This document shows, piece after piece, positions 8,288 to 58,334 of a stretch of 64,000 bases of DNA (its first letter is position 1; the number at the start of each line of letters is the position of its first letter). The stretch is from Thiohalophilus sp. (GTDB lineage Bacteria > Pseudomonadota > Gammaproteobacteria > UBA6429 > Thiohalophilaceae). The notes under the pieces are model-generated. The model was not told where the DNA came from, did no database searches, and saw nothing but the letters and a program-made list of their open reading frames with translations. Position numbers and translations under genes: made by a program. The stretch is taken from positions 992,001 through 1,056,000 of the forward strand of contig NZ_JAXHLN010000003.1 of assembly GCF_034522235.1 (NCBI RefSeq). Reading direction: 5' to 3'.

Positions 8288-9672
8288 TCACCGCGTCGGG
8301 AACATTTTCCCCGGATTCAAAATGCCCTTTGGGTCAAAGTCCTGCTTGATGCGCCGCATCAGTTCCAGCGTGACCGGTTCGATCTCGCGGCCGACGAACT
8401 CCTGCTTTTCGATACCGACCCCGTGCTCGCCGGAGAGGGTGCCGTCCAGCTCCAGGACCAGGGAGAAGACGGCATCGAGGCATTGATGCGTCCGCAGCAT
8501 CTCGTCCGGGTCGTCGGGGTTGGCCAGCAGGTTGACATGGATATTGCCGTTACCGGCGTGGCCGAAGTTGACGATGGTAATGGCGTACTGTTCGGCGAGC
8601 CGGTTCAGGCCGTTGATCAGTTCGGGAATGCGGGAAACCGGCACCACCACATCTTCGTTGATCTTTTTCGGGGCGATGGTGCGCAGGGCCGGGGAGAGCG
8701 CCTTGCGGGTCTGCCACAGTGCCTGGATTTCGGCGGCGGTTTTCGCGCGGGTCAGTTTTAACAGGCCGTCGTTGTCGGCAGCACGGCAAATGGCGTCAAC
8801 GGCGTGTTGAATATTGTTCTCGGCCCCGTCCACCTCGATCATCAGCAGGGCGCCGGCATCCCGGGGCAGCTCGGCTTCGGAGTAGTCGCGAATCATGTTG
8901 ATCGCCCCGGCATCCATAAACTCCAGCGCATAGGGGACGACCGGCTGGGCCATAATGGCGGAGACTGCACGGGCAGCACTGTCGATATCGCGGTAGATGA
9001 CTTGCAGGGTGCGTTTGCTTTCGGGCAAGGGGGTCAGTTTCAAGGTGGCTTCAGTGATGATCGCCAGCGTGCCTTCGGAGCCGATCAGCAAGCGGGTCAG
9101 ATCGTAGCCGACCACCCCCTTGGTCGTGTAGACCCCGGTGCGGATACTCTTGCCGTCACCGGTGATCGCGCGCAGGCCGAAGGTGTTTTCCCGCGGTGTG
9201 CCGTATTTGATGGCCCGCGGTCCCGCCGAGTTGTAGGCCAGATTGCCCCCGATCGAGCAGTAGGCGGCACTGGTGGGATCGGGCGGCCAGAAAAAACCGT
9301 GTTCGGCGGCGACATCCTGGACCTGCTGGTTGGTGACGCCGGGCTCCACCACCATGTAGCGGTTGGCGGGATCGATCCGGATGACATGGTTCATTTTTTC
9401 GGTTGAAAGAATCACGCCGCCGTTGATGGGTACGCTGGCGCCGGTGGTGCCGGTGCCGCGGCCCCGAGCGGTCAGCGGTACGACAAATTCGTGACAAAGA
9501 CGCACGACGGCAGCCACCTGGTCGTGGTCGGCCGGCAGGGCAACCAGTTCAGGCGCGGCGTGGCGACGGCTGTTGTCGTAGCCATAGTTCCAGGTTTCCG
9601 CGGGATCGCTCAACAGGCCTTCGCTACCCAGCTCCTGTTGCAAGCGCCGAACAAACGCGTCGGGTAAAGGCA

Positions 9673-43402: not shown

Positions 43403-44299
43403 CTAGCCCTGAAGCCAGTTCAGATAGGCCTGATTGAGTTGCGGCCCCCAGAGCAGGGCGATCCAGCCGGCGGCCGCCAGATAGGGACCAAAGGGAATCG
43501 GTTTGCCGGCCTGATGTTGCCTGAACAGAATCAGCGCGATGCCGACCACGGCGCCGACCAGCGAGGAGAGCAGGATAATGGCCGGCAACATCTGCCAGCC
43601 CAGCCAGGCGCCGAGCATCGCCAGCAGCTTGAAATCGCCATAGCCCATGCCTTCCTTGCCGGTCACGAGTTTGAACAGCTGATAAACGCTCCACAGTGCC
43701 AGATACCCGGCCATGGCTCCGAACAGGGCCGAAGTGATATCGGTAAAAAGCCCCTGACTGTTGAGCAGCAGCCCGAGCCACAACAGCGGCAGCACGATAT
43801 TGTCGGGCAGATAAAAATGATCGTAATCGATCATCGTCAGCACAATCAGCGCCCAGGTCAGTACTATGGCGAAGACGGCCGTGGGCGTGACACCGAACTG
43901 CCAGGCGGTGAGCGCCGCCAGCAGGCCACTGACCAGTTCGATGATCGGGTAGCGGGCTGAAATGGGGGTCTGGCAATTATTGCAGCGCCCGCGCAGCAGC
44001 AGATAACTGATGACCGGGATGTTCTCCCAGGCGCGGATGGCGTGGCCGCAATGCGGGCAGCGCGAGGCGGGGGTCAGTAGATTATACGGGCCGCTTTCCG
44101 CCGGCGGCTGCCCGGTTTTGAGCTGGTGGGGGTGATGTTCAGTCAGATACTCCAGGCAGTCACCCTGCCACTGGCGGTGCAGCATCAACGGCAGACGCAG
44201 AATCACTACGTTCAGAAAACTGCCGACGATCAGGCCGAGCAGAAACACCACGGCCAAAAATAACACCGGGCTGTCCTGCAGCAGCTGGAGATAGCTCAT
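43403..44299 (-). CDS. pilD: Prepilin peptidase / N-methyltransferase PilD
   Basis: Inner-membrane aspartyl protease that removes the leader of type IV prepilins and methylates the new N-terminal Phe. 298 residues and about eight helices. The cytoplasmic zinc domain has two CxxC pairs (CPHCGHAI and CNNCQTPI) with PVISYLLLRGRC between them; the two catalytic Asp lie in MIDYDHFYLPD and GMGYGDFKLLAMLGAWLG (GxGD). It would process the short pilin encoded at 54425-54610. Confidence 0.97.
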   Translation of the reverse strand: MSYLQLLQDSPVLFLAVVFLLGLIVGSFLNVVILRLPLMLHRQWQGDCLEYLTEHHPHQLKTGQPPAESGPYNLLTPASRCPHCGHAIRAWENIPVISYLLLRGRCNNCQTPISARYPIIELVSGLLAALTAWQFGVTPTAVFAIVLTWALIVLTMIDYDHFYLPDNIVLPLLWLGLLLNSQGLFTDITSALFGAMAGYLALWSVYQLFKLVTGKEGMGYGDFKLLAMLGAWLGWQMLPAIILLSSLVGAVVGIALILFRQHQAGKPIPFGPYLAAAGWIALLWGPQLNQAYLNWLQG

Positions 44300-44308
44300 G
44301 AAGTTGAA

Positions 44309-45532
44309 TTAGCCGCCGACGACCTTACCCATCTGGAAGATCGGCAGGTACATGGCAATGACCAGGCCGCCGATCAGCACTCCCAGAAAGACCATGATGA
44401 TCGGCTCCAGCAGGCTGCTGAGACTGTCCACGGCATTATCGACTTCTTCTTCATAGAAGTCGGCGACCTTGGACAGCATCGTGTCCATGGAGCCGGCCTC
44501 TTCGCCGATGGCGGTCATCTGTATCACCATATTGGGAAACAGGTTGGCGGACTTCATGGCGACGTTCAGCTGGGTTCCCGTGGCGACTTCATCGCGCATG
44601 CGTAATACCGCGTTACCGTAGACTACATTGCCGACGGCGCCGGCCACCGATTCCATGGCTTCGACCAGGGGGACACCGGCGGCAAACATGGTGGCCAGGG
44701 TCCGGGCATACCGGGCGATGGCGGCCTTGTTCAGGATCGGGCCGAGGATCGGCATCTTGATCAATACCTTGTCGAGAAAAACATTGAATTTTTTCGATCG
44801 CTTCTTGGCCTGTATCAGGGCGTAAACACCACCGATGATGCCGCCAAATATCGCCCACCAGTATTGCTGGAAAATTTCCGACATATTGACCACGAATTTG
44901 GTCAGGGCGGGCAAATCGGCGCCGAAACCGGAAAAAAGGTTCTCGAATTCAGGGATAACGAAGAGCATCAAAATTGCGGTGATGAGGAAGGCGACCACGA
45001 TGACCGCGGTGGGATAGAACATAGCTTTTTTGATCTTGCCCTTGATCGCCTCGGTCTTTTCCTTATAGAGGGCAATCTTGTCCAGGATATCGTCCAGAAT
45101 ACCGGCGTGTTCCCCCGCGCGTACCAGGTTGCAGAACAGATCGTCAAAATGATAAGGATGCTTGGCCAAGGCTTCGGACAGGTTGCTGCCACTTTCGATG
45201 TCGGCCTTGACGCCGAGCAGCAGTTTTTGCATGGCGGGGTTTTCATGACCCCGGCCGATAATATCGAACGCCTGTACCAGCGGTACCCCCGAAGACATCA
45301 TCGTGGCCAGCTGGCGACTGAAGATGGAAATATCCGCTGCCTTGACTTTGCCGCCACCGCCAAAGAGAGGTTTGGGTTTCTTTTTGACTTTTTTCGGGTT
45401 GATCCCCTGGCGGCGCAAGTTGGCCTTGACCAGGGCGATACTCTGACCGGTGACTTCGCCCTTGACTGTCTGACCTTTATTGTCTTTACCCTCCCAGAGG
45501 AAGGTATCCTGTTTAGCAGCAGCCTGTGCCAT
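44309..45532 (-). CDS. pilC: Type IV pilus inner-membrane platform protein PilC
   Basis: 407 residues of the GspF/PilC fold: two repeated T2SSF domains (ADISIFSRQLATMMSSGVPL and AAIARYARTLATMFAAGVPL mark the start of each) and three membrane helices (about 168-190, 215-235, 375-397). A basic, Lys-rich N-terminal stretch (INPKKVKKKPKPLFGGGGK) is in the cytoplasm. Works with PilB to insert pilin subunits. 20 nt downstream of pilB. Confidence 0.97.
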   Translation of the reverse strand: MAQAAAKQDTFLWEGKDNKGQTVKGEVTGQSIALVKANLRRQGINPKKVKKKPKPLFGGGGKVKAADISIFSRQLATMMSSGVPLVQAFDIIGRGHENPAMQKLLLGVKADIESGSNLSEALAKHPYHFDDLFCNLVRAGEHAGILDDILDKIALYKEKTEAIKGKIKKAMFYPTAVIVVAFLITAILMLFVIPEFENLFSGFGADLPALTKFVVNMSEIFQQYWWAIFGGIIGGVYALIQAKKRSKKFNVFLDKVLIKMPILGPILNKAAIARYARTLATMFAAGVPLVEAMESVAGAVGNVVYGNAVLRMRDEVATGTQLNVAMKSANLFPNMVIQMTAIGEEAGSMDTMLSKVADFYEEEVDNAVDSLSSLLEPIIMVFLGVLIGGLVIAMYLPIFQMGKVVGG

Positions 45533-45552: not shown

Positions 45553-47271
45553 TTAGTCTTTTGTGACACGGTTGACCTCATCCAGACTGGTCAGTCCGTC
45601 CTTGACTTTTTTCAGCCCCGATTTGCGGATATCCGGTATACCTTCTTTTTCCGCCTGGTCGGCCAGTTGCATGGCATTGGCCCCTTCCATGATCAGTCGA
45701 CTCAGGGCATCGGAGATCGGCATCACCTGATAGATCCCGAGTCGGCCCTTGTAGCCGTTGGTGCATTGATCGCAGCCTTTGGCACCGTAAATTTTGAAAC
45801 CGGTCTTAATTTCTTCTTCTGTGAAGCCTTCCTCCAGCAACGTCTCGCGGGGGATATCCTGCGGCTCCTTGCAGTTGTTGCATAGCCTCCGGGCCAGGCG
45901 CTGGGCGATGATCAGGTTGACTGCCGAGGCAATGTTGTAGGGAGGCACCCCCATGTTCATCAGGCGGTTGAGGGTCTGGGGCGCGTCGTTGGTATGCAGG
46001 GTGGAAAGGACCATGTGGCCGGTCTGGGCCGCCTTGATCGCGATCTCGGCGGTTTCCAGGTCACGGATCTCGCCCACCAGAATGATGTCCGGGTCCTGGC
46101 GCAGGAAGGCGCGCAGGGCTCGGGCAAAATCAAGACCTACCTTGGTATTGACGTTGACCTGGTTGACCCCCGGCAGGTTGATTTCCACCGGATCCTCGGC
46201 CGTGGAGATATTCACATCCGGCTGATTGAGGATGTTGACCCCGGTATACAACGAGACGGTTTTACCACTACCGGTCGGGCCGGTGACCAGAATCATGCCA
46301 TAGGGTTTATGGAGATTTTCCAGATAGAGCTGTTTTTGCTCTTCCTCATAACCGAGCGCATCGATCCCCATCTGGGCGCTGGTGGGATCGAGGATACGCA
46401 TGACGATCTTCTCGCCGAACAGGGTCGGGCAGGTATTGACACGAAAGTCGATGGCCCGGGTCTTGGAAAGATTCAGCTTGATCCGGCCGTCCTGGGGCAG
46501 GCGGCGCTCGGAGATGTCCAGGCGTGACATCACCTTGAGGCGCGCGGCGATGCGCGGCGCCATCCCCACCGGCGGGGCGGCCACTTCTTTCAATATCCCG
46601 TCCTGACGGAAACGGACCCGGAAGCTTTTCTCATAGGGCTCGAAATGGATATCCGAGGCGCCCTTGTTAATGGCATCCAGCAGGACCTTGTTGACGAAAC
46701 GCACCACGGGAGTGTCGTCGGCATCGGATTCGGTGACGGCTTCGCCGGCGGCGGCCTCATCATCGCTGAACTCCACATCATCGAGATCATCGTCGCCGGC
46801 CAGCGCCGAGAGGCCGGTATCGGCCGCTTCCATGGCCCGGTCGATGGTCTTGCTCAGCTTGTCGTCCTGGACCAGAATCGGCTCGGTGGTCATGCCGACG
46901 TGGAACTTGATCTCGTCCAGCGCCTGCAGGTTGGTGGGATCCGAGACCGCCACGAACAGGCGGTTGCCGCGCCGGAACAGCGGCAGGGTATGGTGTTTGC
47001 GTATCAGCTCTTCCTTGACCAGTTTGATGGTGTCCGGCTCGATGTCGACGACATCGATATCCATCACCGGCACGCCGAACTCGTCGGCCGCCGCCTGGGC
47101 GATTTTTCTGGCGTCTGCCATCCCTTTCTGTACCAGATAGCTGACGAACAGCATCTTCTGCTGGATGGAATCGGTGGACGCTTTCTGGGCATCGGCATCC
47201 GAGAGGATCCCGTCCTGCACCAGCTTGCGGGCCAGGCCGCTTAATTGCATTTGTACGCCGGGGGTGGCCAT
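45553..47271 (-). CDS. pilB: Type IV pilus extension ATPase PilB
   Basis: Hexameric motor for pilus growth. About 572 residues: N-terminal MshEN/T2SSE-N domain (LARKLVQDGILSDADAQKA), central domain SDIHFEPYEKSFRVRFRQDG, Walker A TGPTGSGKTVSLYTGVN, Asp box and Walker B QDPDIILVGEIRDLETAEIA, His box TGHMVLSTLHTNDA, and a C-terminal zinc cluster (LCNNC, GCDQCTNGYKGRLGIYQVM). The ATG at 47271 (MATPGVQ) is preferred over a TTG three codons upstream. No pilT is in this window. Confidence 0.96.
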   Translation of the reverse strand: MATPGVQMQLSGLARKLVQDGILSDADAQKASTDSIQQKMLFVSYLVQKGMADARKIAQAAADEFGVPVMDIDVVDIEPDTIKLVKEELIRKHHTLPLFRRGNRLFVAVSDPTNLQALDEIKFHVGMTTEPILVQDDKLSKTIDRAMEAADTGLSALAGDDDLDDVEFSDDEAAAGEAVTESDADDTPVVRFVNKVLLDAINKGASDIHFEPYEKSFRVRFRQDGILKEVAAPPVGMAPRIAARLKVMSRLDISERRLPQDGRIKLNLSKTRAIDFRVNTCPTLFGEKIVMRILDPTSAQMGIDALGYEEEQKQLYLENLHKPYGMILVTGPTGSGKTVSLYTGVNILNQPDVNISTAEDPVEINLPGVNQVNVNTKVGLDFARALRAFLRQDPDIILVGEIRDLETAEIAIKAAQTGHMVLSTLHTNDAPQTLNRLMNMGVPPYNIASAVNLIIAQRLARRLCNNCKEPQDIPRETLLEEGFTEEEIKTGFKIYGAKGCDQCTNGYKGRLGIYQVMPISDALSRLIMEGANAMQLADQAEKEGIPDIRKSGLKKVKDGLTSLDEVNRVTKD

Positions 47272-47624
47272 ATTTTTCAAATCCGGTATGACAGCAGGGT
47301 AATCAGTATATCCGTTTCGTCAGACTGTATCGACGCCGATCGGCGCAGGCTTGAGGCCGTGTGCGGAAAACGTGATACAGGCCCAATGAAACAGCCTGAA
47401 ATAATAATTATAAGTTATTGATGGAAAAGTATTAATTTAGGCAGGTCTACCTGTCAAGCCCAATTTATCCTCGCGCGACGGGGTTGGCCGGGAGCGGTGG
47501 TGAATAATATCAAGCAAGTGAACCCCAAGTTATTGTTTTAATTGTATTTATCGGATTACTAGTGGCTGTCGGTGAGCGTTTTACCTGGACCGGGGTGTCG
47601 GACTTGTCGGTGGTGGGAATGGTA
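47272..47624. other. pilB upstream region
   Basis: About 350 bp without a supported gene. The left part is AT-rich. It contains the pilB promoter described separately. Nothing recognisable is coded between 47460 and 47624; it may be decayed sequence from the former pilA-pilB junction. Confidence 0.4.
47428..47457 (-). promoter_or_regulatory. Probable pilB promoter with overlapping palindrome
   Basis: On the minus strand a perfect TTGACA (47457-47452) is followed, 17-18 bp on, by TAATAC/AATACT (47434-47428) as a modest -10, about 150 nt before pilB. The bases GACAGGTAGACCTGCC, which overlap the -35 and spacer, form a near-palindrome (CAGGT...ACCTG) that could bind a dimeric regulator. Confidence 0.5.
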
Positions 47625-47976: not shown

Positions 47977-49020
47977 TTAAGCCGCTTGCTGCACCCGCTC
48001 AGGGTTGAGGGCCGTCGGTCCTACCGCTACCCAGTTTCTCGTTCTGCCGGACCATCGCTGCGGGTTCCGCACCTTGGCCTGCTCGTAGATCCGATCACGC
48101 TGTTTCAGGATATCCCGGTCGTCGCCTCGATGCCGCTGCGCCGGCGTCACAAATTTCAGCGCACTGTGGCAGTGGCGGTTGTTGTACCAGTCGACAAATT
48201 TCAGCATCCAGTCACGAGCCTCTTCCAGCGTGGCAAATCCCTGCGATGGCCAGGCCGGACAATACTTCAGTGTCCGAAACAGCGACTCGGAAAACGCATT
48301 GTCGTTGCTCACTCGCGGCCGACTGTATGACGGCGATATGCCCAGATCCGCCAGCTTGATCCGCAGCGTCTGCGATTTCATCGGGCTGCCGTTGTCCGCA
48401 TGCAAGACCAGCGGTTGGCGAAAGCACCGCTCGGCCAGCACGCTGCGCTGCACCAGCGGTGCGGCCAACTCGCCGGCCTCTCGCTCGTGGACTTCCCAGC
48501 CGACGATTTTGCGGCTGTAGATGTCCTCAATGAGGTACAGGTACCAAAACAGTCCACGCACCCGGCTGGGCATCCAGCTGATGTCCCACGACCACACCTG
48601 GTTCGGCCCGTCGGCCACATGCGTGGTCGGCGCCTTCGTTTTCTTCGGCGCCTGGGCCCGGCCCCGGTGATGCCGCTGGCCCGCCGCATGCAGTACCCGG
48701 TAGAAGCTCGACTCACAGGCGATATATTCACCCCGGTCCGCCAGCTTCGGCACGATCTGGCTCGGCGGCAGTGACGCAAACTCGGGTTCATTGCACACGG
48801 TCAGGATACGCTCGCGCTCCTCGGGCGTGAGCTTGTTCGCCGGCTCGGGCCTGATAGCATCAGGCCGTCGGTCGGCATGAACTTCCCCACCCTGGGTCCA
48901 TCGCTGCAGAGTGCGTACAGTGATGCCGATTTCCTTGCAGGCCCGCGCCTTGCGGGCTCCAGCGCTCACCGCCTCCTCAATATAACCCACCAGTTTGCGC
49001 CGCTCCGGGAGCGAGGTCAT
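47977..49020 (-). CDS. IS3-family transposase OrfB (integrase core)
   Basis: 347 residues. N-terminal helix-turn-helix-like segment (ARKACKEIGITVRTLQRW as far as it can be read by eye), HTH_21-like region and an rve integrase core with the DDE triad: Asp in VWSWDISWMPSRV, Asp in LVLHADNGSPMKS, Glu in VSNDNAFSESLFRTLKY, followed by FVDWYNNRHCHSALKFVTP. It overlaps orfA by 4 nt in the -1 frame, so it is probably made mainly as an OrfAB fusion. Confidence 0.93.
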   Translation of the reverse strand: MTSLPERRKLVGYIEEAVSAGARKARACKEIGITVRTLQRWTQGGEVHADRRPDAIRPEPANKLTPEERERILTVCNEPEFASLPPSQIVPKLADRGEYIACESSFYRVLHAAGQRHHRGRAQAPKKTKAPTTHVADGPNQVWSWDISWMPSRVRGLFWYLYLIEDIYSRKIVGWEVHEREAGELAAPLVQRSVLAERCFRQPLVLHADNGSPMKSQTLRIKLADLGISPSYSRPRVSNDNAFSESLFRTLKYCPAWPSQGFATLEEARDWMLKFVDWYNNRHCHSALKFVTPAQRHRGDDRDILKQRDRIYEQAKVRNPQRWSGRTRNWVAVGPTALNPERVQQAA

Positions 49021-49514
49021 CCTTCCTCGTCGTCCCCCCAGAGGGCGTTCAACTTTTTTCGCAGGGCCAGCAGCGCGGCGGTCTCTGCCAGCGCCTTGTC
49101 CTTGCGCCGCAGTTCCCGCTCCAGCTCCTTGATACGCTTTTTATCCTCGCGGGCCTGGGCCTTCTCAGCCTGTCGCCGACTGGCCGCCTGGTCCGCTCCG
49201 GTCTCACAGGCCGTGCGCCAGGCCTTCACCTGCTCGGGGTATAACCCCTTACCACGGCAATACTCACTCAGCTCCGCTTCACTCAGGCCGGCGGTCTCCA
49301 CCACCACCGCCAGCTTCGCTTCACCCGACCAGTCGTCGCTTTGTTTTCCGTTTCCCGGCACCGGGACCCCCTGTTCTCTGGCTTGTTTTCGCCAATTATA
49401 CAGGGTCATTTCGCTGATCCCTTCCTCTCGAGCCACATCGGCTACACTTCGGTTTTGCGGGGGCAACAGCATGCACATCACGGCAGCCTTGCGTTCTTCT
49501 GAATAACGGGGCAT
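49017..49514 (-). CDS. IS3-family transposase OrfA
   Basis: About 165 residues from the ATG at 49514 (MPRYSEERKAAVM). A helix-turn-helix domain (RSVADVAREEGISEMTLYNW) that should bind the IS ends, and a Lys/Glu-rich leucine-zipper-like coiled coil at the C-terminus (DKKRIKELERELRRKDKAL). The frame opens further up at a TTG inside the terminal repeat, but that has no support. A frameshift heptamer lies near the 3' end. Confidence 0.92.
   Translation of the reverse strand: MPRYSEERKAAVMCMLLPPQNRSVADVAREEGISEMTLYNWRKQAREQGVPVPGNGKQSDDWSGEAKLAVVVETAGLSEAELSEYCRGKGLYPEQVKAWRTACETGADQAASRRQAEKAQAREDKKRIKELERELRRKDKALAETAALLALRKKLNALWGDDEEG
49053..49059 (-). promoter_or_regulatory. A-AAA-AAG slippery site for -1 frameshifting in the IS
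   Basis: On the minus strand the orfA codons CGA AAA AAG contain the heptamer A AAA AAG in the correct phase for -1 slippage. After a slip the frame is open through the orfA stop into orfB. This is the standard IS3-family way of making OrfAB. Confidence 0.75.
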
Positions 49515-49582
49515 TTCTCGTCGCTTTCCACCCCCTGTCTTGGTTACTTTCTGATTCAGAAGAGGCGACAACTATCCTGACA

Positions 49583-49830
49583 CAGGGGGTGTGCCTCGAT
49601 AGTGTAATACCCTGTTTTTAATATTATAATATTTTGTGGTAATTTTCTGTGAAATCTGCGGAAACTACTATCCCGTAAAATCGGCATCGCTGGCGGCAAA
49701 TTGAGAATTAATTTTCCGTGTTTCCCCTGGTTTGTACGTGAAAGCGGCGGGCATGCTGGGCGAGGGCCAGTACAGACACTATACGAGTCGCTATTTTGTT
49801 AACGGCCAGTTATACAAGGCAGATTATTTA
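49583..49830. other. AT-rich gap between the IS and the O-ligase-like gene
   Basis: Mostly AT-rich sequence with overlapping TATAAT-like boxes near 49620-49632 that may drive the downstream gene. The reading frame of that gene is open back to a TTG at 49732, but its first recognisable hydrophobic segment starts after 49831. I see no sigma-54 site or second pilin fragment here. Confidence 0.4.
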
Positions 49831-51234
49831 ATGCGATTGGCAGAAGAATTAAAAAAACAACCGCTTTTCTTCCTCTCAATAACCGTGCTTGTGCTGATCG
49901 TGGCATTTTTTGCTGAGATGCAGGGGTTACATCAACCTCATGTTAAGACTATTTATAAAAGAGAACTATTTTTTTTGGAACTCGCGTTTGTTGTGTTAGT
50001 GATTTTAAATCGCGAGATCACTTTCCCTTCTGTGAAAAACTTTCCTGGTCTTTTGGTTGCATTAGCTGCGTACTGGGGAGTGTGGTCATTATTTTCTGCA
50101 GTTGATGCTATAAGACCGCTCTTGGCTTTGTATACATATGCAGAGCATTTAACTTTAGTGTTGTTTAGTTTCTCGGTTTACGCGCTCATCCGGAAATTTA
50201 AATACAGCAGAGAAATATTGCTATGGGTTATTCTTCTAGGGTTTTGTTTTTATTGTTTGTTTTTTGGTGGGTCGTATTTTCTGTTCGAAAATTATAATCC
50301 AGAAATCAATTTTGCTGCAACATTTGATGAAGTCGGATTTAGAAATATTCGTCATTTGGGATATTATTTTGCCATCGGTTTAGTTGTGGCGACTGGTATG
50401 GGAGTGGGTTTAGGGCATTATTATGGGAAAGCAGCATTATGGATTGGGGCTGTATTGTCTGTTGTTGCATGGGCTTTGATTTTTTGGGCAGGAGGAAGGG
50501 GGCCGCTGGTCGCATTCTTTGTGTCATTAGGGTTAATTATTTTTCTTAACGGAGGATTCAGGCAAAGCAAACAACTTTTACTATTTGTGGCTATCACCTG
50601 TTTCATCGGCGCTTTCGGATCACTGCTTATCCCCGGCGGTTATGGTATAGATTATTTAATAGGGAAGTTATTGTGGGTACCAGAAGACTTTTCGACGTTG
50701 ATAGAAGTGGAAAAAACACCGTCGAAGCGGATAGAGATGTGGCTGACCTGTTTGAATGAGATAAAAAATAATCCTTTTTTCGGGATAGGGCAGAACAATT
50801 TTCGATATGGCTGTGGCAAAGGGTTTCCGCTGACTCTCCATCCGCATGGTGTGCATATCCAGGCGCCGCTAGAGTGGGGGATACCGGGTGCAGTGGCATT
50901 TTTTTTGTTAGGCGGGGCTATGCTGTGGCGGACTTTCATGAATGTCAACGCAGCTCAGGAAGGTGAATCATATGCATTAATCCCTTTGTGGGGAGTGCTG
51001 ATGTTGCTGGTTGCCTCAGGATATGACGGGATATTGTATCAACGTTACTCGCTGATGTTTTTTGCATTATTTTTAGCAATGATGATGCCTGTTAAAGATG
51101 ACTTGAAATCAGATGGGGTACGCAAAGAAGATGGCCGATTAGTTTATTACGGGCTGCTGTTTTTTGTTTTGCTGTTACTTATGATTCTAGCTGTGGCTGA
51201 TTTTCAGTTCGTCGTTGAGTATTATGAATTGTAA
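49831..51234 (+). CDS. O-antigen-ligase/Wzy_C-family membrane protein, possible pilin O-oligosaccharyltransferase
   Basis: About 467 residues with ten or more membrane helices. The large periplasmic loop holds KRIEMWLTCLNEIKNNPFFG, GIGQNNFRY and HPHGVHIQAPLEWGIPGAVA, the His-containing pattern of the Wzy_C domain shared by WaaL ligases, Wzy polymerases and protein O-oligosaccharyltransferases (PglL, TfpO/PilO, TfpW). Its place among pilin genes makes a pilin-glycosylating enzyme likely, but no other glycan genes are near. The start is uncertain (TTG 49732 or ATG 49831; AAGGCAG precedes the latter). Base composition is AT-rich compared with the pil genes. Confidence 0.75.
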   Translation: MRLAEELKKQPLFFLSITVLVLIVAFFAEMQGLHQPHVKTIYKRELFFLELAFVVLVILNREITFPSVKNFPGLLVALAAYWGVWSLFSAVDAIRPLLALYTYAEHLTLVLFSFSVYALIRKFKYSREILLWVILLGFCFYCLFFGGSYFLFENYNPEINFAATFDEVGFRNIRHLGYYFAIGLVVATGMGVGLGHYYGKAALWIGAVLSVVAWALIFWAGGRGPLVAFFVSLGLIIFLNGGFRQSKQLLLFVAITCFIGAFGSLLIPGGYGIDYLIGKLLWVPEDFSTLIEVEKTPSKRIEMWLTCLNEIKNNPFFGIGQNNFRYGCGKGFPLTLHPHGVHIQAPLEWGIPGAVAFFLLGGAMLWRTFMNVNAAQEGESYALIPLWGVLMLLVASGYDGILYQRYSLMFFALFLAMMMPVKDDLKSDGVRKEDGRLVYYGLLFFVLLLLMILAVADFQFVVEYYEL

Positions 51235-51286: not shown

Positions 51287-52222
51287 CTAGCTGTTGTGAC
51301 GATCATTTTGTGATTTCTGGTTATTTTTCTGTATTGGTTCCTCTAAAATACGAAAAAAAGTAGTTTCAAGGGATGTTGCTGGCCTGGCTTCAATCAGTTG
51401 CCCGCCTTTTTGGTTTAGTGCGACGAGCCAAGCAGCCATATCTGCCTGTTCAATTTCCTCTTCATATTCGCCTTTTCGTAATTGTTCCCCGCTGGTTATG
51501 TTCTCGTCAATCTGGTACCTGACAATAAAGCGGGCTGTATAACTTGACAAAAGCTCCTTCGGTGAACGTGTAGTTACAAGAGTACCTTCATTAATGAACC
51601 CGAATCTGTCAGCGATGCGTTCGACGTCATGTAATACGTGAGAAGTAAAAAATATTGCGCCACCCTGCTGTTTATATTCAAACAATAGTTCGATCACATC
51701 CTTTCGCCCTATCGGGTCAAGTCCGGATAACGGTTCATCAAGCACGAGTAAACGGGGTTTTACTACCATTGCATGGGCTATAGCAGTACGTTGCACATTA
51801 CCTTTGGAAAGCTGTCGAATTCGCCGGTTGGCGTAAGGCGTCAAGGATAAACGTTCCAGCCAGTATCCACACCATTCCTTATCATCGCTGCGTTTTATAC
51901 CATAGTGGCGCAACGCCATACGCAGGATTTCTAAAGGGGTAAATTGTTCATATAATGATGGTGACTCGGGCAGGTAAGATACACCACTACGGGATTCAGC
52001 GAGGCGAGCAGAAATACCATGGATCCGAACTTCTCCCTGATAGTTATTGATGATATCGAGCATGATTTTGATAGTGGTAGATTTGCCTGCACCATTAGGG
52101 CCAACAAAACCAAAGACTTCACCTTTAGGGATAGAAAAGCTAACATCACGTAAAGCATGGACGGTTTTTCGGCCCTTGCTGAATGATTTAGAGACGGAGT
52201 CGAATTCCAATACTGAAGTCAT
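51287..52222 (-). CDS. ABC transporter ATP-binding protein (PilH-like by context)
   Basis: 311 residues: Walker A GFVGPNGAGKSTTIKIMLDI, signature region RQLSKGNVQRTAIAHAM (LSKGN variant), Walker B RLLVLDEPLSGLDPIGRKDV, switch His in FFTSHVLHDVERIADRFG, and a C-terminal extension of about 90 residues (SYTARFIVRYQIDENITSGE on) typical of ABC-2 exporters. It partners the permease at 53073-53888. Third of three tightly packed genes (4-nt overlap with the TPR gene). Myxococcus PilH, required for pili, is an ABC ATPase encoded just after pilA; the shared position suggests the same job here. Low GC. Confidence 0.88.
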   Translation of the reverse strand: MTSVLEFDSVSKSFSKGRKTVHALRDVSFSIPKGEVFGFVGPNGAGKSTTIKIMLDIINNYQGEVRIHGISARLAESRSGVSYLPESPSLYEQFTPLEILRMALRHYGIKRSDDKEWCGYWLERLSLTPYANRRIRQLSKGNVQRTAIAHAMVVKPRLLVLDEPLSGLDPIGRKDVIELLFEYKQQGGAIFFTSHVLHDVERIADRFGFINEGTLVTTRSPKELLSSYTARFIVRYQIDENITSGEQLRKGEYEEEIEQADMAAWLVALNQKGGQLIEARPATSLETTFFRILEEPIQKNNQKSQNDRHNS

Positions 52223-53067
52223 AAGTCTCCCTCGTTTATCCCCTGAATCTTATGGGTCCGCAGACGAAATTCACCATTGATAAATTCATAGCCTAAATTG
52301 AGTGGGTCCTGAGGGAAATTATGTAGAATACCTTGAGTTATTAACTGTTTCGGGTTGTCCAATGATTCGCCGGTTTCTTCTTCGTAAGTATTCTGAGCTT
52401 TACGTAGTGTGACGAGCCCCTGTAACCGAACTAGGCGTTTTTCGAGCATCTCCCGCAACTTGGGATCTTGGGCTGTTCTAATTTCATTACTAAGATAATT
52501 AATAGCCATTTGCTCATCATTCATTTCTTCGGCGTTAATCATAATCGCCAGTTTGCGAAAGACTGAAGAATTGTTCGTTGAACGTTTGGCGGCCTTTTCT
52601 AATTCGTTTTGTGCTTCCTCGATATTATGAAAAAAGAAATATTGATTAAAGCCGAGAAAAAAAGGTGGATATTCATCCCAGAAACGGCATTCAGTCGCAC
52701 GTTGTAATAAGTCGTTTCCTGCTTCTTCCATTCCTCCCCAGGTAAGTACAGCGTTACCCATGTAATAGTTGTCTTCATGACAGGGATTAAGTTGGGCGAC
52801 CACTCTATGTGAACGAAGACGATAAACAGCACGTTCCCGATCATTACTGTCGTCAAGAGTAATGGTTGCGCTGCGTATCGCCTCCAAATTGGCTGCCAGA
52901 AAGCGGTCACCAGCAAATATTAGTAGTTGTACAGGGGCAGTAATTACCACTTGTCCTTCGAGAGAGTGCTCCGTACGAGATATGTCGCCTGGTCCCGTTA
53001 TATTGCCAAAAAAAAATATTAGCGCAAACAGAATACTGGCGAGTAAAGATAAATGATGTTGCCACAT
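52219..53067 (-). CDS. TPR-like protein with N-terminal anchor, between ABC subunits
   Basis: 282 residues. A hydrophobic N-terminal segment (about 6-21, LSLLASILFALIFFFG) acts as signal or anchor. The middle is rich in helical pairs spaced like tetratricopeptide repeats (NPCHEDNYYMGNAVLTWGGM, NIEEAQNELEKAAKRSTNNS, NDEQMAINYLSNEIRTAQDP). The C-terminal part (EEETGESLDNPKQLITQGIL, DPLNLGYEFINGEFRL) is a conserved-looking small domain. No catalytic motif. It lies 5 nt after the permease gene and overlaps the ATPase gene, so it is probably an accessory subunit of that transporter, perhaps the counterpart of Myxococcus PilG. Confidence 0.65.
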   Translation of the reverse strand: MWQHHLSLLASILFALIFFFGNITGPGDISRTEHSLEGQVVITAPVQLLIFAGDRFLAANLEAIRSATITLDDSNDRERAVYRLRSHRVVAQLNPCHEDNYYMGNAVLTWGGMEEAGNDLLQRATECRFWDEYPPFFLGFNQYFFFHNIEEAQNELEKAAKRSTNNSSVFRKLAIMINAEEMNDEQMAINYLSNEIRTAQDPKLREMLEKRLVRLQGLVTLRKAQNTYEEETGESLDNPKQLITQGILHNFPQDPLNLGYEFINGEFRLRTHKIQGINEGDL

Positions 53068-53072
53068 ATAAG

Positions 53073-53888
53073 TTAGTTAAATTGTTTACGTCCAAGTAAC
53101 CAGATTGATAGCGCCAGCAATGCAAGTGCATAGGCAAGTGTGCTTAATACTAAACCAGGCCAGTCTGCCGGCAGAAACTCCCATTTGCTGTACAAGCTGA
53201 TACGCCGCACATCTAAAGCGCCAAGATCAGGTAACAAGTAGTATAAAATGCCTAATGAGCCCCGATATAGCTCGGGGTTATCTACCACGTAGCGTTCGTT
53301 CTCTAGCAAGGCAATAATGCCAGAATAAGAGCGGGAAACCAGCAGGAAACCCAGGGTGCCTATGAGTACGAAACTGGGTGTTACAGCTACTATCGAAATC
53401 AGCAGAGCCAACGTGGCGATCACGAATAGGTCTATAGCTGTAAATACAAGTGTAACTACATATCCTAAGCCCAGATCTACGGGTGTAGACTGTTGGTAAC
53501 CATAATAACTTAGATAACCGACGAGGGCGGCAAGAATAATGCCGAGTATTATTATTGCGCCAAATGTGAGAATAATTAGTGCGGAGAAGCGTCCGAGTAA
53601 AAAATGAGAACGAGGTTGCGGTGCTGTTAGTGAAGTAAGATAGTAGCGTCGATCAAATTCTCGTGTGAATAGCTCCTGCATTAACAATATGATCAGTAAC
53701 GGTAATCCCAGTCGTATGACAGACAGGCCAATATCCAATGCGACAGTAGCTGGCTGGCGACCGCTGAATTGCGCGCCGAGTAATGTTGCAACCACAAGGA
53801 CCATGCCAATCCAGAAGAGGACTGTGAATAAACGCGCACGCCACGCAAGCCAAAGGCCGGTTACGAAGTCAGGGGCCAAGTATTTCAT
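53073..53888 (-). CDS. ABC-2 type transporter permease (PilI-like by context)
   Basis: About 271 residues with six predicted membrane helices (about 22-42, 55-75, 99-127, 145-170, 175-195, 240-262). Charged phrases LMQELFTREFDRRYYLTSLT and LAPDFVTGLWLAWRARLFTV resemble the coupling regions of ABC-2 permeases. The ATG at 53888 is chosen; a TTG lies two codons upstream. It begins just past the terminator that closes the pilin transcript, so it depends on readthrough or its own promoter, which I could not identify. Confidence 0.8.
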   Translation of the reverse strand: MKYLAPDFVTGLWLAWRARLFTVLFWIGMVLVVATLLGAQFSGRQPATVALDIGLSVIRLGLPLLIILLMQELFTREFDRRYYLTSLTAPQPRSHFLLGRFSALIILTFGAIIILGIILAALVGYLSYYGYQQSTPVDLGLGYVVTLVFTAIDLFVIATLALLISIVAVTPSFVLIGTLGFLLVSRSYSGIIALLENERYVVDNPELYRGSLGILYYLLPDLGALDVRRISLYSKWEFLPADWPGLVLSTLAYALALLALSIWLLGRKQFN

Positions 53889-53920
53889 AAGCAAAATGTA
53901 TCACAAAAATCGTTGTTCAT

Positions 53921-53949
53921 AAAAAAAAGGGAGGCAAGTGCCTCCCTTT
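53921..53949 (-). terminator. Intrinsic terminator after the split-pilin pair
   Basis: On the minus strand AAAGGGAGGC (53949-53940) pairs with GCCTCCCTTT (53935-53926) around a short ACTT loop, and eight T residues (53928-53921) follow. Strong and correctly oriented for the pilA-N/Spc-like transcript. It separates the highly expressed pilin pair from the ABC genes. Confidence 0.9.
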
Positions 53950-53983: not shown

Positions 53984-54385
53984 TCAGCTCGATGTGGCCA
54001 CCGTACCAGCTGCACCTGCTGCAGCGCTGCCTGCTGAATCGCAGTTTGCATCCTGAGAACCAACTACTGAGCCACCTGCAGAGCTGCCTGTGTAAATGTA
54101 GTTATTGTTGCTGGCATCGTTACGGCCATTGGGATGACAGGTACCCACAGCAATAATGTTGCTGGCTGTAGCACAGTGGTAGCCGCCGGCGACACCGCTG
54201 GAAAGGTTAATTGAGACATTTTCAGTCAACAGTGAGCAGTCACCAACTTGAATTGTTTGTTGTGTCCCTTCGCCGTTTCCGATCTGGTCAGCGGCAATGG
54301 CTTCATCAGTATCGTCTGCGGCGAAAACAGATGTTGAAAATGCAATGCCGACAATGCCGCCAAGCGTAATGAGTAATTTTTTCAT
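53984..54385 (-). CDS. Secreted four-cysteine protein, PilA-C/Spc-like partner of the short pilin
   Basis: About 133 residues with a Sec signal peptide (MKKLLITLGGIVGIAFSTSV, cleavage after FA), so not a prepilin leader. The mature part of about 112 residues has four Cys (in GDCSLL, GYHCATAS, GTCHPNG, DANCDSA), suited to two disulfides, and ends in a low-complexity Ala/Gly/Ser/Thr tail (SAAAGAAGTVATSS). AAGGAG lies 7 nt before the ATG at 54385. It follows the truncated pilin by 39 nt, before a shared terminator. In Geobacter the short PilA-N is followed by a gene for PilA-C (also called Spc), which completes the pilin. Position, size and export fit; sequence similarity was not tested. Confidence 0.6.
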   Translation of the reverse strand: MKKLLITLGGIVGIAFSTSVFAADDTDEAIAADQIGNGEGTQQTIQVGDCSLLTENVSINLSSGVAGGYHCATASNIIAVGTCHPNGRNDASNNNYIYTGSSAGGSVVGSQDANCDSAGSAAAGAAGTVATSS

Positions 54386-54424
54386 GATCAATCTCCTTAA
54401 GATTCTCTGACAGTACTGTGTTGT

Positions 54425-54610
54425 TTACCGTTTGCTGGCAAGCATCACGGTCAGCATGTTTTTAGCGTCAGCCTGGGCCGTAGAGTCATTGGCCTTGGCG
54501 CGGTATTCGTTAAACTGCGGAATGGCCACGGCGGCCAGGATGCCGATGATGGCGATAACGATCATCAGCTCGATCAGGGTGAAGCCCTTCATAGCTTTTT
54601 TCGCTTTCAT
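54425..54610 (-). CDS. Short type IV pilin, PilA-N type
   Basis: 61-residue prepilin. Leader MKAKKAMKG, cleavage before Phe (G/FTLIELM), Glu5 present. The mature protein is only 52 residues: the helix [20 protein letters not shown], then [20 protein letters not shown], then [12 protein letters not shown] and stop. Normal pilins go on for about 100 more residues with a beta domain and disulfide loop. The pattern IPQF--YR-KA--S----D--N closely matches Geobacter PilA (mature length 61). GGGAG lies 6 nt before the ATG, and a sigma-54 promoter and 5' stem-loop precede it. The gene ends cleanly, without frameshift debris, so it looks functional rather than truncated. Aromatics are only Phe1, Phe24 and Tyr27. 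Confidence 0.92.
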
Positions 54611-54686: not shown

Positions 54687-54702
54687 AGCAGTATGCGTGC
54701 CA
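54687..54702 (-). promoter_or_regulatory. Sigma-54 (RpoN) promoter of the short pilin
   Basis: Minus-strand TGGCACGCATACTGCT matches the -24/-12 consensus TGGCACG-N4-TTGCW with one mismatch (C for the first T of TTGC). GG and GC are exactly 10 bp apart. Transcription would start near 54676, about 66 nt before the ATG. PilR, encoded just upstream, is a sigma-54 activator. Confidence 0.85.
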
Positions 54703-54888: not shown

Positions 54889-56241
54889 TTATTCGATGCC
54901 CAGTTTCTTGATGCGATAGCGTAACTGGCGAAAGCTCAGTCCCAGCAGCCGGGCGGCGGCGGTTTTGTTGTAGCGGGTCTGTTCCAGGGCCTGGCGGATG
55001 GCTTCTTTTTCCTGTTCCTGCAGGGAATTGTCCAGCGGTCGCTCTTCGGCAGCGTGCGGGGCGGGGTTGCTGGTCGTGGCGGTGTGGTTGGCAGGCAGGT
55101 TGAGACTGGCAGCGTCGATCCGGTTGTCCTCGCACAGGGTCATGGCCCGCTCGAGCAGGTTTTCCAGTTCCCGGACGTTGCCGGGAAAGGAATAGCTTTG
55201 CAGCGCCTGCAGGGCATCGTCGCTCAGGCGGGGAACGTCCACCTGCCAGTCGGCGGCGATGCGCTGCAGAAAATGGTCCGCCAGTAAAGGGATATCCCCG
55301 GGCCGCTCGGCCAGATCCGGCAGGTGCAGTTCGATGACGTTGATCCGGTAATAGAGATCCTGGCGAAACTCGCCGGTGTGAATCAGCTGGCCCAGATCTT
55401 TGTGCGAGGCACTGAGGATGCGCACATCGGTATGGATCTCCTGCTGGCTGCCGATGGGGCGTACGGCCTTTTCCTGGATGGCGCGCAGCAGTTTGACCTG
55501 CATGTGCAGGGGCAGGTCGGCCACCTCGTCGAGAAACAGGGTGCCGCCCTGGGCGGCCTGGAACAGGCCGGCCTTGTCGCCGTTGGCCCCGGTGAAGCTG
55601 CCTTTTTTGTGGCCAAAGAACTCGCTTTCCATCAGCTCGGCGGGAATGGCGCCGCAGTTGACCGGCACGAAGGGCTGGTCGCGGCGCGGCCCCTGTTCGT
55701 GAATCAGGCGCGCCGCCAGCTCCTTGCCGACCCCCGAGCCGCCGCTGATATAGACCGGCGCCTGGCTGCGGGCCAGCTTGGCAATGGTCTGGCGAATCTG
55801 CTGCATCACCGCCGAGTCGCCCAGCAGGGTGGTTTGCCCCGGTTCGGCCGGGCTTTTAGAGGCAGGCCGTCGTTCGAGCTTGAGGGCGGTGGTGACCAGG
55901 CTGCGCAGATCGTTGATGTCCAGCGGCTTGTTGACGAAGTCGTAGGCCCCGGCCTTGAGGGCCTCGATGGCCGATTCCATATTGCCGTGGGCGGTGATCA
56001 TCGCCACCGGCAGATCAGGGTACTGTTGCTGGATATGGCGGATCAGATCGATGCCGTTGCCGTCGGGCAGGCGCATATCGGTCAGACAGAGATCAAACGT
56101 ATTCTGCGTAAGCAGCGTTTTCGCCTGCCCCAGATTTTCCGCGCTGAGGCAGTCCACGCCCATGCGCGAGAGCGTGATCTCCAGCAGCTCGCGGATATCC
56201 GGTTCGTCGTCGACGATTAGTGCCAGTGGTTGTTCGGTCAC
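54889..56241 (-). CDS. pilR: Sigma-54-dependent response regulator PilR
   Basis: Activates pilin transcription when phosphorylated by PilS. 450 residues: receiver domain (LIVDDEPDIRELLEIT, phospho-acceptor Asp in LCLTDMRLPDGNG, conserved Lys in VNKPLDINDL), AAA+ domain with P-loop SGGSGVGKELAARLIHEQG, the sigma-54 loop GSFTGA, TLFLDEVADLPLHMQVKLLR, and a C-terminal Fis-type helix-turn-helix (RYNKTAAARLLGLSFRQLRY). GC-rich, unlike the pilin block it borders. Confidence 0.95.
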   Translation of the reverse strand: MTEQPLALIVDDEPDIRELLEITLSRMGVDCLSAENLGQAKTLLTQNTFDLCLTDMRLPDGNGIDLIRHIQQQYPDLPVAMITAHGNMESAIEALKAGAYDFVNKPLDINDLRSLVTTALKLERRPASKSPAEPGQTTLLGDSAVMQQIRQTIAKLARSQAPVYISGGSGVGKELAARLIHEQGPRRDQPFVPVNCGAIPAELMESEFFGHKKGSFTGANGDKAGLFQAAQGGTLFLDEVADLPLHMQVKLLRAIQEKAVRPIGSQQEIHTDVRILSASHKDLGQLIHTGEFRQDLYYRINVIELHLPDLAERPGDIPLLADHFLQRIAADWQVDVPRLSDDALQALQSYSFPGNVRELENLLERAMTLCEDNRIDAASLNLPANHTATTSNPAPHAAEERPLDNSLQEQEKEAIRQALEQTRYNKTAAARLLGLSFRQLRYRIKKLGIE

Positions 56242-56439: not shown

Positions 56440-58071
56440 TCAGTGCATCTGCCGGCGCGGATCCTGAAAGGTAATCCGGAAACAGCTGCCGCCGGTAGCG
56501 ACCGGTTCATAGTTTAAATGGGCCTGGTTGGCTTCGGCCAGTTCCCGTGAGATATACAGCCCCAGCCCGGTGCCCGAAGTGGCAGTGGTGTAAAAGGGCT
56601 CGAAGATGTGGGCGGCGATTTGCGGATCGATACCCGGGCCGTGATCGAGAATATCGATAAACGGCCGGGCCGATTCCCCGGTCAGGGCCGCGTGGATCAC
56701 CACCTTGGGAAATCCCGGGTAGTCCTCGCTGTAGCGCACCGCATTCTGGCACAGGTTGGTGAGGATCTGCTCCAGCTGGCTCGGATCAAACCGGACTCGC
56801 AACGGGCTTGAATCGATGTTGAGGCCGATCAGCTCCGGGCGCAGCCCCTGCCCGGCGACGAACTCGCGGAGGAAATTCGGCAAAAAATGGTTCAGTTCGA
56901 TCAGCCGCGGAGTGGAATGATCGCGGCGGCTCAACTGCATGATGTTCTCCACGATGGTATTCATACGCCGGGATTGATCGCCGATGATGCCGGTCAGGCG
57001 CCGGTCGTGCTCGTCCAGCTGGGGCGATTCGCCCAGCAACTGCCCGGCGTGGCTGATGGCGCCCAGCGGGTTGCGGATCTCGTGGGCGATACTGGCGGTC
57101 AGGCGCCCCAGCGCGGCCAGTTGCAACTGCTGCGCGTGGCGGGCCATGGCGGTGGCATCCTCCAGAAAGATCAGGGTCCCGCTGCCCGACGCCTGACCGA
57201 TGCGGGCGAACCGCGGCATGACCCGGGGGTGCTCCGCCGAGGGCTGGATCATCTCGATCTCGGCGGCCGGATCCGCCCGCCAGCGTTGCGCCTGATCGGC
57301 CAGTGGTGCCGAGAGATCGGCCAGCCGGCTGTAGTGGGTAGCCGAGGGCATGCCGAGCATGTACCAGGCCGATTCGTTCATCAGCCGGATCCGATCCGCC
57401 TCATCGATGACCATGATGCCGGTTTGCATGCGCTGGATGATGTGTTCGGTCAGCTGCGACATGTTGGCCAGGTCCAGCCCGCGGCGCTGGGCCAGCGCCT
57501 CGCTTTCCCGGATGCGGCGGGCAAAGCCGTGAACCGCCAGGGCGGTGACGAACAGCGTCAGGCCCAGAATGCCGGCCTGGGTGTAGGTGTTGGGCTCCCC
57601 GAGCCCGACAAACTGGGCAGTAAACTGTTCGCCCAGTACCGCCAGGGTGGCCAGCGCGGCGAACATCAGCGGATGCCGGCCACCCATGACGATGCTGCCG
57701 CCGGCCACGGTGACGATCAGCAGGGTGCCGAGGCCGCTGCTGATACTGCCGCTGGCATGCATCAGCAGTGTGGTAGCAAGGATGTCGGTGCCAATCTGCA
57801 GGTAGATCTGGAGTTCAAACCGCGGCCAGCGATTACTGATCAGGACAATGAAAATGATCGCCAGCGCAAAATAGATCAGCGAAACGGCATAAAACAGCAC
57901 CGGATCGTGGCTGGCCAGCGGGGGCAGCAGATAATCGCTGTAGAACAGCCCGGTGAACAGCCCGCTGATCAGCAGGCGGTAGAGATTGAGCAGGGCCAGC
58001 GGTTGCCAGATCTGCGCCTCACTCTCGGCATGGGCAAACGGGAAAGGTTGATCGTCGGTGTCTGTGCGCAT
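56440..58071 (-). CDS. pilS: Sensor histidine kinase PilS
   Basis: Membrane kinase that controls PilR; in Pseudomonas it senses pilin in the inner membrane. About 543 residues: six N-terminal helices (about 30-190), a PAS-like domain (MQTGIMVIDEADRIRLMNES), HisKA box with the phospho-His (TASIAHEIRNPLGAISHAGQ), and ATPase motifs N (NLCQNAVRYSED), G1 (DILDHGPGIDPQI) and G2 (GTGLGLYISRELAEANQAH). The ATG at 58071 is chosen; the frame extends 34 codons further into the next gene's region. Confidence 0.94.
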   Translation of the reverse strand: MRTDTDDQPFPFAHAESEAQIWQPLALLNLYRLLISGLFTGLFYSDYLLPPLASHDPVLFYAVSLIYFALAIIFIVLISNRWPRFELQIYLQIGTDILATTLLMHASGSISSGLGTLLIVTVAGGSIVMGGRHPLMFAALATLAVLGEQFTAQFVGLGEPNTYTQAGILGLTLFVTALAVHGFARRIRESEALAQRRGLDLANMSQLTEHIIQRMQTGIMVIDEADRIRLMNESAWYMLGMPSATHYSRLADLSAPLADQAQRWRADPAAEIEMIQPSAEHPRVMPRFARIGQASGSGTLIFLEDATAMARHAQQLQLAALGRLTASIAHEIRNPLGAISHAGQLLGESPQLDEHDRRLTGIIGDQSRRMNTIVENIMQLSRRDHSTPRLIELNHFLPNFLREFVAGQGLRPELIGLNIDSSPLRVRFDPSQLEQILTNLCQNAVRYSEDYPGFPKVVIHAALTGESARPFIDILDHGPGIDPQIAAHIFEPFYTTATSGTGLGLYISRELAEANQAHLNYEPVATGGSCFRITFQDPRRQMH

Positions 58072-58085
58072 AGGCCGGGGGGATG

Positions 58086-58334
58086 TCAGCTGTCGTGAGG
58101 CAGATGCGCGCGGCTGCAATAGTAATGACCGTCCCGCTTGAGCGCCTCTTTTTCCGGGACATGGGTGCCGCACTGCTCGCAGCGCACCATGTTTTCAACG
58201 GGGTTTTCAACGGGCCGGCCGGGCTTCGACGAATTTGTGCTGCGCGCCCGGGCCAGGGCCTTGAAGCGTTGATAGAGACGAATGACCAGCCAGATCAGCA
58301 GGGCAAGGACGATAACGCGCAGAAGTCCGGGCAT
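58086..58334 (-). CDS. PP0621-family small membrane protein with zinc-ribbon-like tail
   Basis: 82 residues from the ATG at 58334 (AGGA upstream; the longer frame lacks support). One N-terminal helix (LLRVIVLALLIWLVIRLYQR), a basic Ser/Pro linker, and a C-terminal Cys motif MVRCEQCGTHVPEKEAL and HYYCSRAHL, likely a metal-binding knuckle. A gene of this family is common beside pilS in Pseudomonas-like genomes; its role is unknown. It starts the pilS-pilR transcript, with 14 nt to pilS. Confidence 0.85.
   Translation of the reverse strand: MPGLLRVIVLALLIWLVIRLYQRFKALARARSTNSSKPGRPVENPVENMVRCEQCGTHVPEKEALKRDGHYYCSRAHLPHDS

Follow-up and report, generated by a model that had tools for sequence, protein, structure and literature searches.

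A probable two-gene type IVa pilin of PilA-N/PilA-C type in Thiohalophilus sp. and its relatives

The papers covered here tie the pilA-N/pilA-C gene pair to Geobacter, to its order and to "nanowires". The two genes of Geobacter (GSU1496 and GSU1497) encode geopilin domain 1 (PilA-N) and geopilin domain 2 (PilA-C, also named Spc). The pilin subunit of G. sulfurreducens is composed of PilA-N and PilA-C (PMC11046646). For G. metallireducens, both chains are present in the pilus structure 9egp. Truncated pilins were also described in Accumulibacter, Thermithiobacillus, Pseudomonas and others, together with eight GSU1497-like partners (PMC5174107). The origin of PilA-C is disputed: gene fission, with PilA-C derived from full-length pilins, was proposed in PMC5174107, whereas a shared pilin ancestor for PilA-C was doubted in the review PMC6201914. 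Within excerpts of the open-access literature, we found no report of a PilA-C-like partner outside Desulfuromonadales.

We analysed a stretch of 64,000 nucleotides from Thiohalophilus sp. (contig NZ_JAXHLN010000003.1, positions 992,001 to 1,056,000), which is called the window below; its pilus features are collected in Table 1. A sequence-only reading of this DNA had proposed a Geobacter-style split pilin in a gammaproteobacterium, made of a complete 61-residue prepilin, a four-cysteine Sec-type protein 39 nt behind it and a strong terminator, and these three elements were borne out. The short prepilin (61 aa) has a class III leader, Glu5 and a stop codon, and ends after the alpha-1 helix. It matched N_methyl (PF07963) with an E value of 4.2e-10 (39.2 bits against the Pfam gathering cut-off of 21.2), its mature form of 52 aa starts with FTLIELMIV, and GGGAGA forms a ribosome site 5′ of the ATG. 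The partner gene is located directly downstream on the same strand and encodes 133 aa from its ATG, or 135 aa from an alternative TTG 6 nt further 5′; AAGGAGA precedes the start. By reading, the partner carries a Sec-type signal peptide whose A-x-A site lies behind residue 22, and the mature protein has 111 residues with four cysteines. The gap of 39 nt is in frame, and the TAA of the pilin is the sole interruption between the two genes.

Four terminator-like sites were found against a shuffle mean of 1.3, and two of the four are the hairpin behind the partner, found on both strands. The sigma-54-like element 5′ of the pilin was called with the -24/-12 consensus. At least nine of ten positions matched in 22 of 33 upstream regions of short pilins and fewer than nine in the other 11; the scan covered the upstream regions of short pilins, and its shuffles preserve base composition only.

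Table 1. Features of the pilus locus in the window, counted from its first nucleotide
Feature	Position	Strand	Basis
PilD-like prepilin peptidase	43403..44299	-	sequence reading and synteny only
PilC platform protein	44309..45532	-	PilC model E=6.8e-130, below equivalog cut-off
PilB, type IVa pilus extension ATPase	45553..47280	-	TIGR02538 over cut-off
ABC ATPase, PilH-like by position	51287..52222	-	ABC_tran 1.5e-28
Membrane-anchored protein, PilG-like by position	52219..53067	-	no family passes its cut-off; synteny with T. thiocyanatoxydans
ABC-2 type permease, PilI-like by position	53073..53894	-	ABC2_membrane below cut-off; same place in relatives
Intrinsic terminator hairpin after partner	53926..53949	-	terminator-like site scan; 10 pairs, then T run
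Partner with Sec-type signal, PilA-C-type head candidate	53984..54385	-	family behind short pilins; profile match 9egp_B
Short type IV prepilin, PilA-N type	54425..54610	-	N_methyl; geopilin domain 1 PDB matches; kept in relatives
Sigma-54-like -24/-12 element 5′ of pilin	54688..54702	-	TGGCAC-N5-CTGC, 9/10 consensus positions
PilR-like sigma-54 response regulator	54889..56241	-	Response_reg, Sigma54_activat, HTH_8; name by position
PilS-like sensor kinase, 6TM_PilS domain	56440..58173	-	PF25323, 9.7e-35

The same layout was found in the congener Thiohalophilus thiocyanatoxydans DSM 16326 (Gammaproteobacteria, Thiohalomonadales), where the order by reading is pilS–pilR–short pilin–partner–permease–G–H, a 134-aa pilin and pilB–pilC. 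Identity to the window was 74% for the short pilin and 34% for the partner. A profile of four short pilins reached at least 79.7 bits in nine of 369 genomes of the class. Eight of these contained a short pilin and then a partner, and the ninth (G115) contained full-length pilins; the pair was thus counted in at least eight genomes of this search, splitting being checked one by one in the strongest matches. The pair was also present in Thauera sp. Sel9 and in all three genomes of one further family (that of G160). For another family (f160), 24 of 198 genomes passed E≤1e-21 with the short-pilin profile, and their best loci held a short pilin in 20 and a full-length pilin in four (L111-L114). Family f207 belongs to another class, possibly Zetaproteobacteria. 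Fifteen loci were taken from it, and the pair of short pilin and partner was present in three of them, a full-length pilin in the other 12. Through the phylum sample, 70 of 398 genomes passed the short-pilin profile, a count in which split and one-gene pilins are not told apart. With its wording "in a gammaproteobacterium", the sequence-only reading drew the range too narrow, because the pair occurs in Thauera and in another class as well.

We counted 33 distinct short pilins, in Thiohalophilus, in Thauera, in three further families of the class and in a family of another class. Their mature length was 52 aa in 27, 51 aa in three and 53 aa in three. These 33 were filtered for mature lengths of 48-59 aa, and a separate listing that kept everything below 85 aa also gave 51-53 aa only; two more short pilins of 52 aa (L110, L116), missed by the pattern, stand outside the 33. 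A secreted partner followed 11-44 nt behind in 25 of 27 distinct short-pilin rows; in one of the 25 the contig ends within the partner. The remaining two, second copies in L092 and L107, had a PilI-like permease directly behind and no partner of their own. All 27 complete partners showed an even cysteine count after residue 20, with two to eight cysteines among the relatives; partner counts omit L125 (runs of N), L090 (contig end) and the two permeases behind second copies. Because pair, order and spacing recur across many genomes, the pair is not a product of chance.

Some loci contained additional copies. A second, diverged short pilin (52-53 aa mature) was located near the first in L092, L102/L118, L107 and L109. 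In L088 (G200), one short pilin is followed by two partner-family genes in tandem, at 8925-9392 and in the frame after it (L048:1933-2370, +). The motif of the second has diverged, and the two are possibly alternative heads for one helix.

For a held-out test at E<0.01, a profile of nine mature partners (A6) was compared with the downstream frames of those pilins whose loci played no part in building it. It matched behind 18 of 23 short pilins from f160 and f207 and behind one of 81 full-length pilins, where the match was the neighbouring full-length pilin itself. The five misses were the second pilin copies of L092, L102, L107 and L109, plus L103, of which the partner is visible in the locus listing and scored below the threshold. 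The partners therefore form a single family, which goes with short pilins. One further match of the partner profile, in G056 (E=0.009), was dropped since it sits opposite unrelated genes.

Against PDB, the short pilin matched 7tgg_A (1.8e-16), 9egp_A (5.4e-16) and 2m7g/6vk9 (1.9e-14). These top three of the 21 PDB sequences listed are all Geobacter geopilin domain 1, ahead of 18 others; judged from these alignments, the helix part is homologous to geopilin domain 1.

The partner itself was more difficult to assign. It matched no family over cut-off in Pfam or NCBIfam, and a better match to an unrelated family, which would have spoken against the split pilin, was found neither there nor in the PDB profile searches. 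Through comparison of a nine-row partner profile with signal peptides (A5) with 177,635 PDB sequences, we found a single match at E≤10. This was 9egp_B (E=2.4e-5), the PilA-C chain (geopilin domain 2) in the pilus of G. metallireducens, and the signal peptide contributed to the score. The nine-row profile without signal peptide matched no PilA-C in PDB at E≤10. The profile search that had been suggested for the partner thus pointed to PilA-C with the full profile, but not with the mature-only profile. In shuffle comparisons, 9egp_B restricted to its mature residues (22-97 as printed) was reached by none of 5000 shuffles with A5, one of 5000 with A6 and five of 3000 with a 27-row partner profile. 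The corresponding counts for G. sulfurreducens PilA-C (7tgg_a) were 24 of 5000, 55 of 5000 and 322 of 3000. Weak scores between partner and PilA-C are expected, because the two Geobacter PilA-C proteins are barely alike mutually (E=0.014).

A link was found through the heads of full-length pilins. In local HHalign comparison, the 27 partners matched the heads of the 12 full-length f207 pilins (P=1.6e-4, probability 51%), and these heads matched the two Geobacter PilA-C sequences (P=1.2e-4, probability 55%); partners and f207 heads align at a motif LSxxV...H..G...Y. In global mode the two indirect links had P values of 0.0086 and 0.0036. Direct comparison of the partners with Geobacter PilA-C was weak, with P=0.018 for both sequences together and 0.04 and 0.046 singly. 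Ordinary gammaproteobacterial heads gave P=0.088 to 0.97 in ten comparisons with partners, f207 heads and PilA-C. With the partner profile, f207 heads outranked other heads (Mann-Whitney p=3e-4, 16 vs 78), and the best single full-length head reached 10.6 bits. Among 72 heads, an ordinary one came ahead of the two from G115, which took places 2 and 4; among 94 heads and with the larger partner profile, the G115 heads took places 10 and 23. For these weak ranks G115 alone was not used as evidence of a fused pilin, the f207 full-length pilins giving the better test. The link via f207 heads and the lone PDB match argue against a purely positional, convergent tie to PilA-C. The split pilin of the sequence-only reading gained from the conserved partner family behind short pilins and from the PilA-C match, and its reservation that the PilA-C link was positional and might be convergent lost ground, as f207 heads match both sides, although the direct comparison remained weak (P=0.018). 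On these statistics, which are modest, the partner is most likely a PilA-C-type head related by descent.

An AlphaFold2 model of the partner from three rows is beta-rich, with six strands and a C-terminal helix (pLDDT 63, pTM 0.62), and Foldseek found no match for it in PDB at E≤0.001. By VIA-align, 9egp_B appeared weakly in seventh place, with Z 2.7 and 20% identity over 60 aligned residues (target length 92), among rows that reach Z 3.4 and are mostly unrelated proteins, and was not taken as proof of fold. When both genes were read through in frame and folded as a single chain, along with two relatives, the model was uninformative (pLDDT 42, pTM 0.32), and no structural claim is based on it.

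In the window, the short pilin is located between the pilR-like gene and the ABC gene set, upstream of pilB–pilC, and an O-antigen ligase-like gene and an insertion sequence separate the ABC genes from pilB–pilC. The type IVa set of the genome comprises PilB and PilQ over cut-off, PilC below the equivalog cut-off, PilS, and PilR by position; the PilD-like protein had no NCBIfam match at 1e-10. The O-antigen ligase-like protein (Wzy_C, PF04932, 1e-11; 49732-51234, +) could transfer oligosaccharides to pilin, as a pilin O-oligosaccharyltransferase. Frames that resemble it were seen by reading near pilins in L059 and L061/L087. The insertion sequence contains two genes, an rve integrase and HTH_Tnp_1 (47977-49571, -), and occupies the stretch from the pilH-like gene to pilB where T. 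thiocyanatoxydans has its 134-aa full-length pilin (ComP_DUS, L041:7393-7797) in the pil locus. No counterpart of this pilin was found at that place in the window genome.

Fifteen N_methyl frames were found in the genome, one inside the window and 14 outside. The latter belong to a fimT/pilV/pilW/pilX/pilY1/pilE operon, an MSHA-type cluster, a T2SS gspGHIJ set and one orphan, names which come from gene order and sequence and not from family calls. A PilE-like pilin of 149 aa (C3:2474654-2475103) is the last gene of the operon, read as fimT-pilV-pilW-pilX-pilY1-pilE, and is the other plausible filament former; in principle it could polymerise. The pilin at C3:187891 is located behind ATPase and platform genes read as MSHA-type. 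The locus at C3:186590-191519 (G000, L043) was read as an MSHA-type cluster with its own full-length pilins, and the next frame, of 1022 aa, consists largely of N. The sequence-only reading had named a longer pilin elsewhere, forming the actual filament, as a finding that would refute it; longer pilins do exist, but in clusters read as minor-pilin, MSHA-type and T2SS.

We consider it quite probable that the two genes encode two halves of one major type IVa pilin of PilA-N/PilA-C type, a reading that includes docking of the partner and its presence in the filament. The short prepilin would be cleaved and methylated by PilD and, by analogy with Geobacter, would supply the membrane-embedded, polymerising N-terminal helix (alpha-1). 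The partner would be exported by Sec as a free periplasmic beta-domain, probably disulfide-bonded, and may dock on the C-terminal part of alpha-1 before assembly driven by PilB and PilC. The pilus would then be assembled by PilB and PilC with the partner as globular head, again by analogy with Geobacter as to its presence and stoichiometry. Transcription of the pair, as a short unit that ends at its own terminator, may be under the control of PilS–PilR and sigma-54.

Other readings were weighed against this one. The partner could be a periplasmic chaperone, or an assembly factor, that serves the short pilin specifically and stays outside the filament structure; Spc has been termed a putative e-pili chaperone in PMC10470525. 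Its much faster evolution than that of the pilin (34% against 74% identity) would fit, and so would the second short-pilin copies of L092 and L107, with the permease and no partner directly behind. However, pilin heads normally evolve fast, and such a rate would be normal for a head. The partners moreover resemble heads of full-length pilins, both chains are held in 9egp, and the G. sulfurreducens subunit is PilA-N plus PilA-C (PMC11046646), and a chaperone outside the filament seems unlikely to us. Could the short pilin instead be a minor or special-purpose subunit, with a full-length PilE-like or MSHA-type pilin making the main filament? The 14 N_methyl frames outside the window would allow it, and so would the additional pilin of 134 aa that precedes pilB in T. 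thiocyanatoxydans; but the window genome has no pilin at that place, its PilE-like gene ends the operon that begins with fimT, the C3:187891 pilin was read as MSHA-type and others lie in a set read as T2SS. The short pilin, for its part, adjoins pilSR and has the sigma-54-like element, and a minor role is regarded as quite improbable.

It might also be that the partner is unrelated to PilA-C and became paired with short pilins independently of Geobacter. The mature-sequence signal to G. sulfurreducens PilA-C is near chance, the direct HHalign comparison reached only P=0.018, and Pfam and NCBIfam gave no family over cut-off, all of which would suit convergence. Nevertheless, the partners form one family by the nine-row profile and by the 18 of 23 held-out pilins of f160 and f207, and they are linked to PilA-C through pilin heads as well as through the lone PDB match 9egp_B, which leaves such convergence improbable. 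Lastly, the in-phase frames with one stop between them in the window could be read as two remnants of a full-length pilin gene decayed by frameshift or stop. This reading was refuted by the conservation of the split and its probability is negligible: each gene has its own start and ribosome site, the partner has its own signal peptide, the break falls at residue 51-53 in 33 distinct pilins, and two stops lie between the frames in L051 (Thauera) and L052.

For conductive e-pili, PMC7399161 gives an aromatic content of at least 9.8% (His counted) and aromatics at positions 1, 24, 27, 50/51 and 32/57, and by aromatic content it names candidates in Beta- and Gammaproteobacteria. The window pilin does not match this description: its mature form has only F1, F24 and Y27 as aromatics (5.8% for F, W and Y; no His is present). 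None of the 33 short pilins reaches 9.8% (F, W, Y), the highest being 9.6%. As the e-pili aromatics are missing, conductivity of the window pilin is not predicted, and a nanowire reading of its sequence is not supported.

With about even confidence for and against, we might speculate that the two-gene pilin is an old and widespread type IVa class in Pseudomonadota rather than a peculiarity of Geobacter that evolved for conduction. Secreted separately, the heads would then be free to swap and to diversify; the Geobacter nanowire pilin would be one branch, and full-length pilins with matching heads would be the one-gene sources of the split. A split pilin without the conductive aromatic set in Thiohalophilus and Thauera separates the two-gene architecture from conductivity, and the fission hypothesis gains candidate links in the full-length pilins whose heads match both the partners and PilA-C of Geobacter. 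For dating a fission, the 48 aa of N-domain in a FastTree tree were considered too few. These organisms also offer cultivable non-Geobacter systems for asking why the pilus head is a separate protein.

Compared with known systems, ordinary gammaproteobacterial PilA/PilE of type IVa share the class III leader, Glu5, the conserved alpha-1-N and the machinery with the short pilin. They differ in being one-gene pilins, mostly with IPAY... where the short pilin type has IPQF..YR.KA, and their heads do not match the partner (HHalign P=0.25, 0.69). A three-gene ABC set beside pilA and pilSR, as in the window and T. thiocyanatoxydans, is also present in Myxococcus as PilG/PilH/PilI, the names here being given by position; according to PMC6060248, the transport role of the Myxococcus proteins is without supporting experimental data.

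Full-length "geopilin-type" pilins (for example L126-L137 in f207 and L089 in G115) have the same N-domain, with about 100 bits by the short-pilin profile, and heads with LSxxV...H..G...Y, of which the f207 heads as a group match the partner family; unlike the window pair, helix and head are in one gene. In f207, the loci L126, L130, L131 and L132 contain tandem full-length pilins, the second of 119-121 aa mature with the H-G head motif. The Geobacter pair differs from that of the window in length: according to PMC11046646, the mature helix part has 61 aa in G. sulfurreducens against 52 aa here, and PilA-C has 104 aa against a mature partner of 111 aa with four cysteines. The window pilin, unlike that of Geobacter, has no aromatics at 32, 50/51 and 57, and its host is a gammaproteobacterium. 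Both have a short class III prepilin that stops behind alpha-1, a second protein that is secreted on its own and is beta-rich (in the window by prediction), and pilSR and core pil genes nearby.
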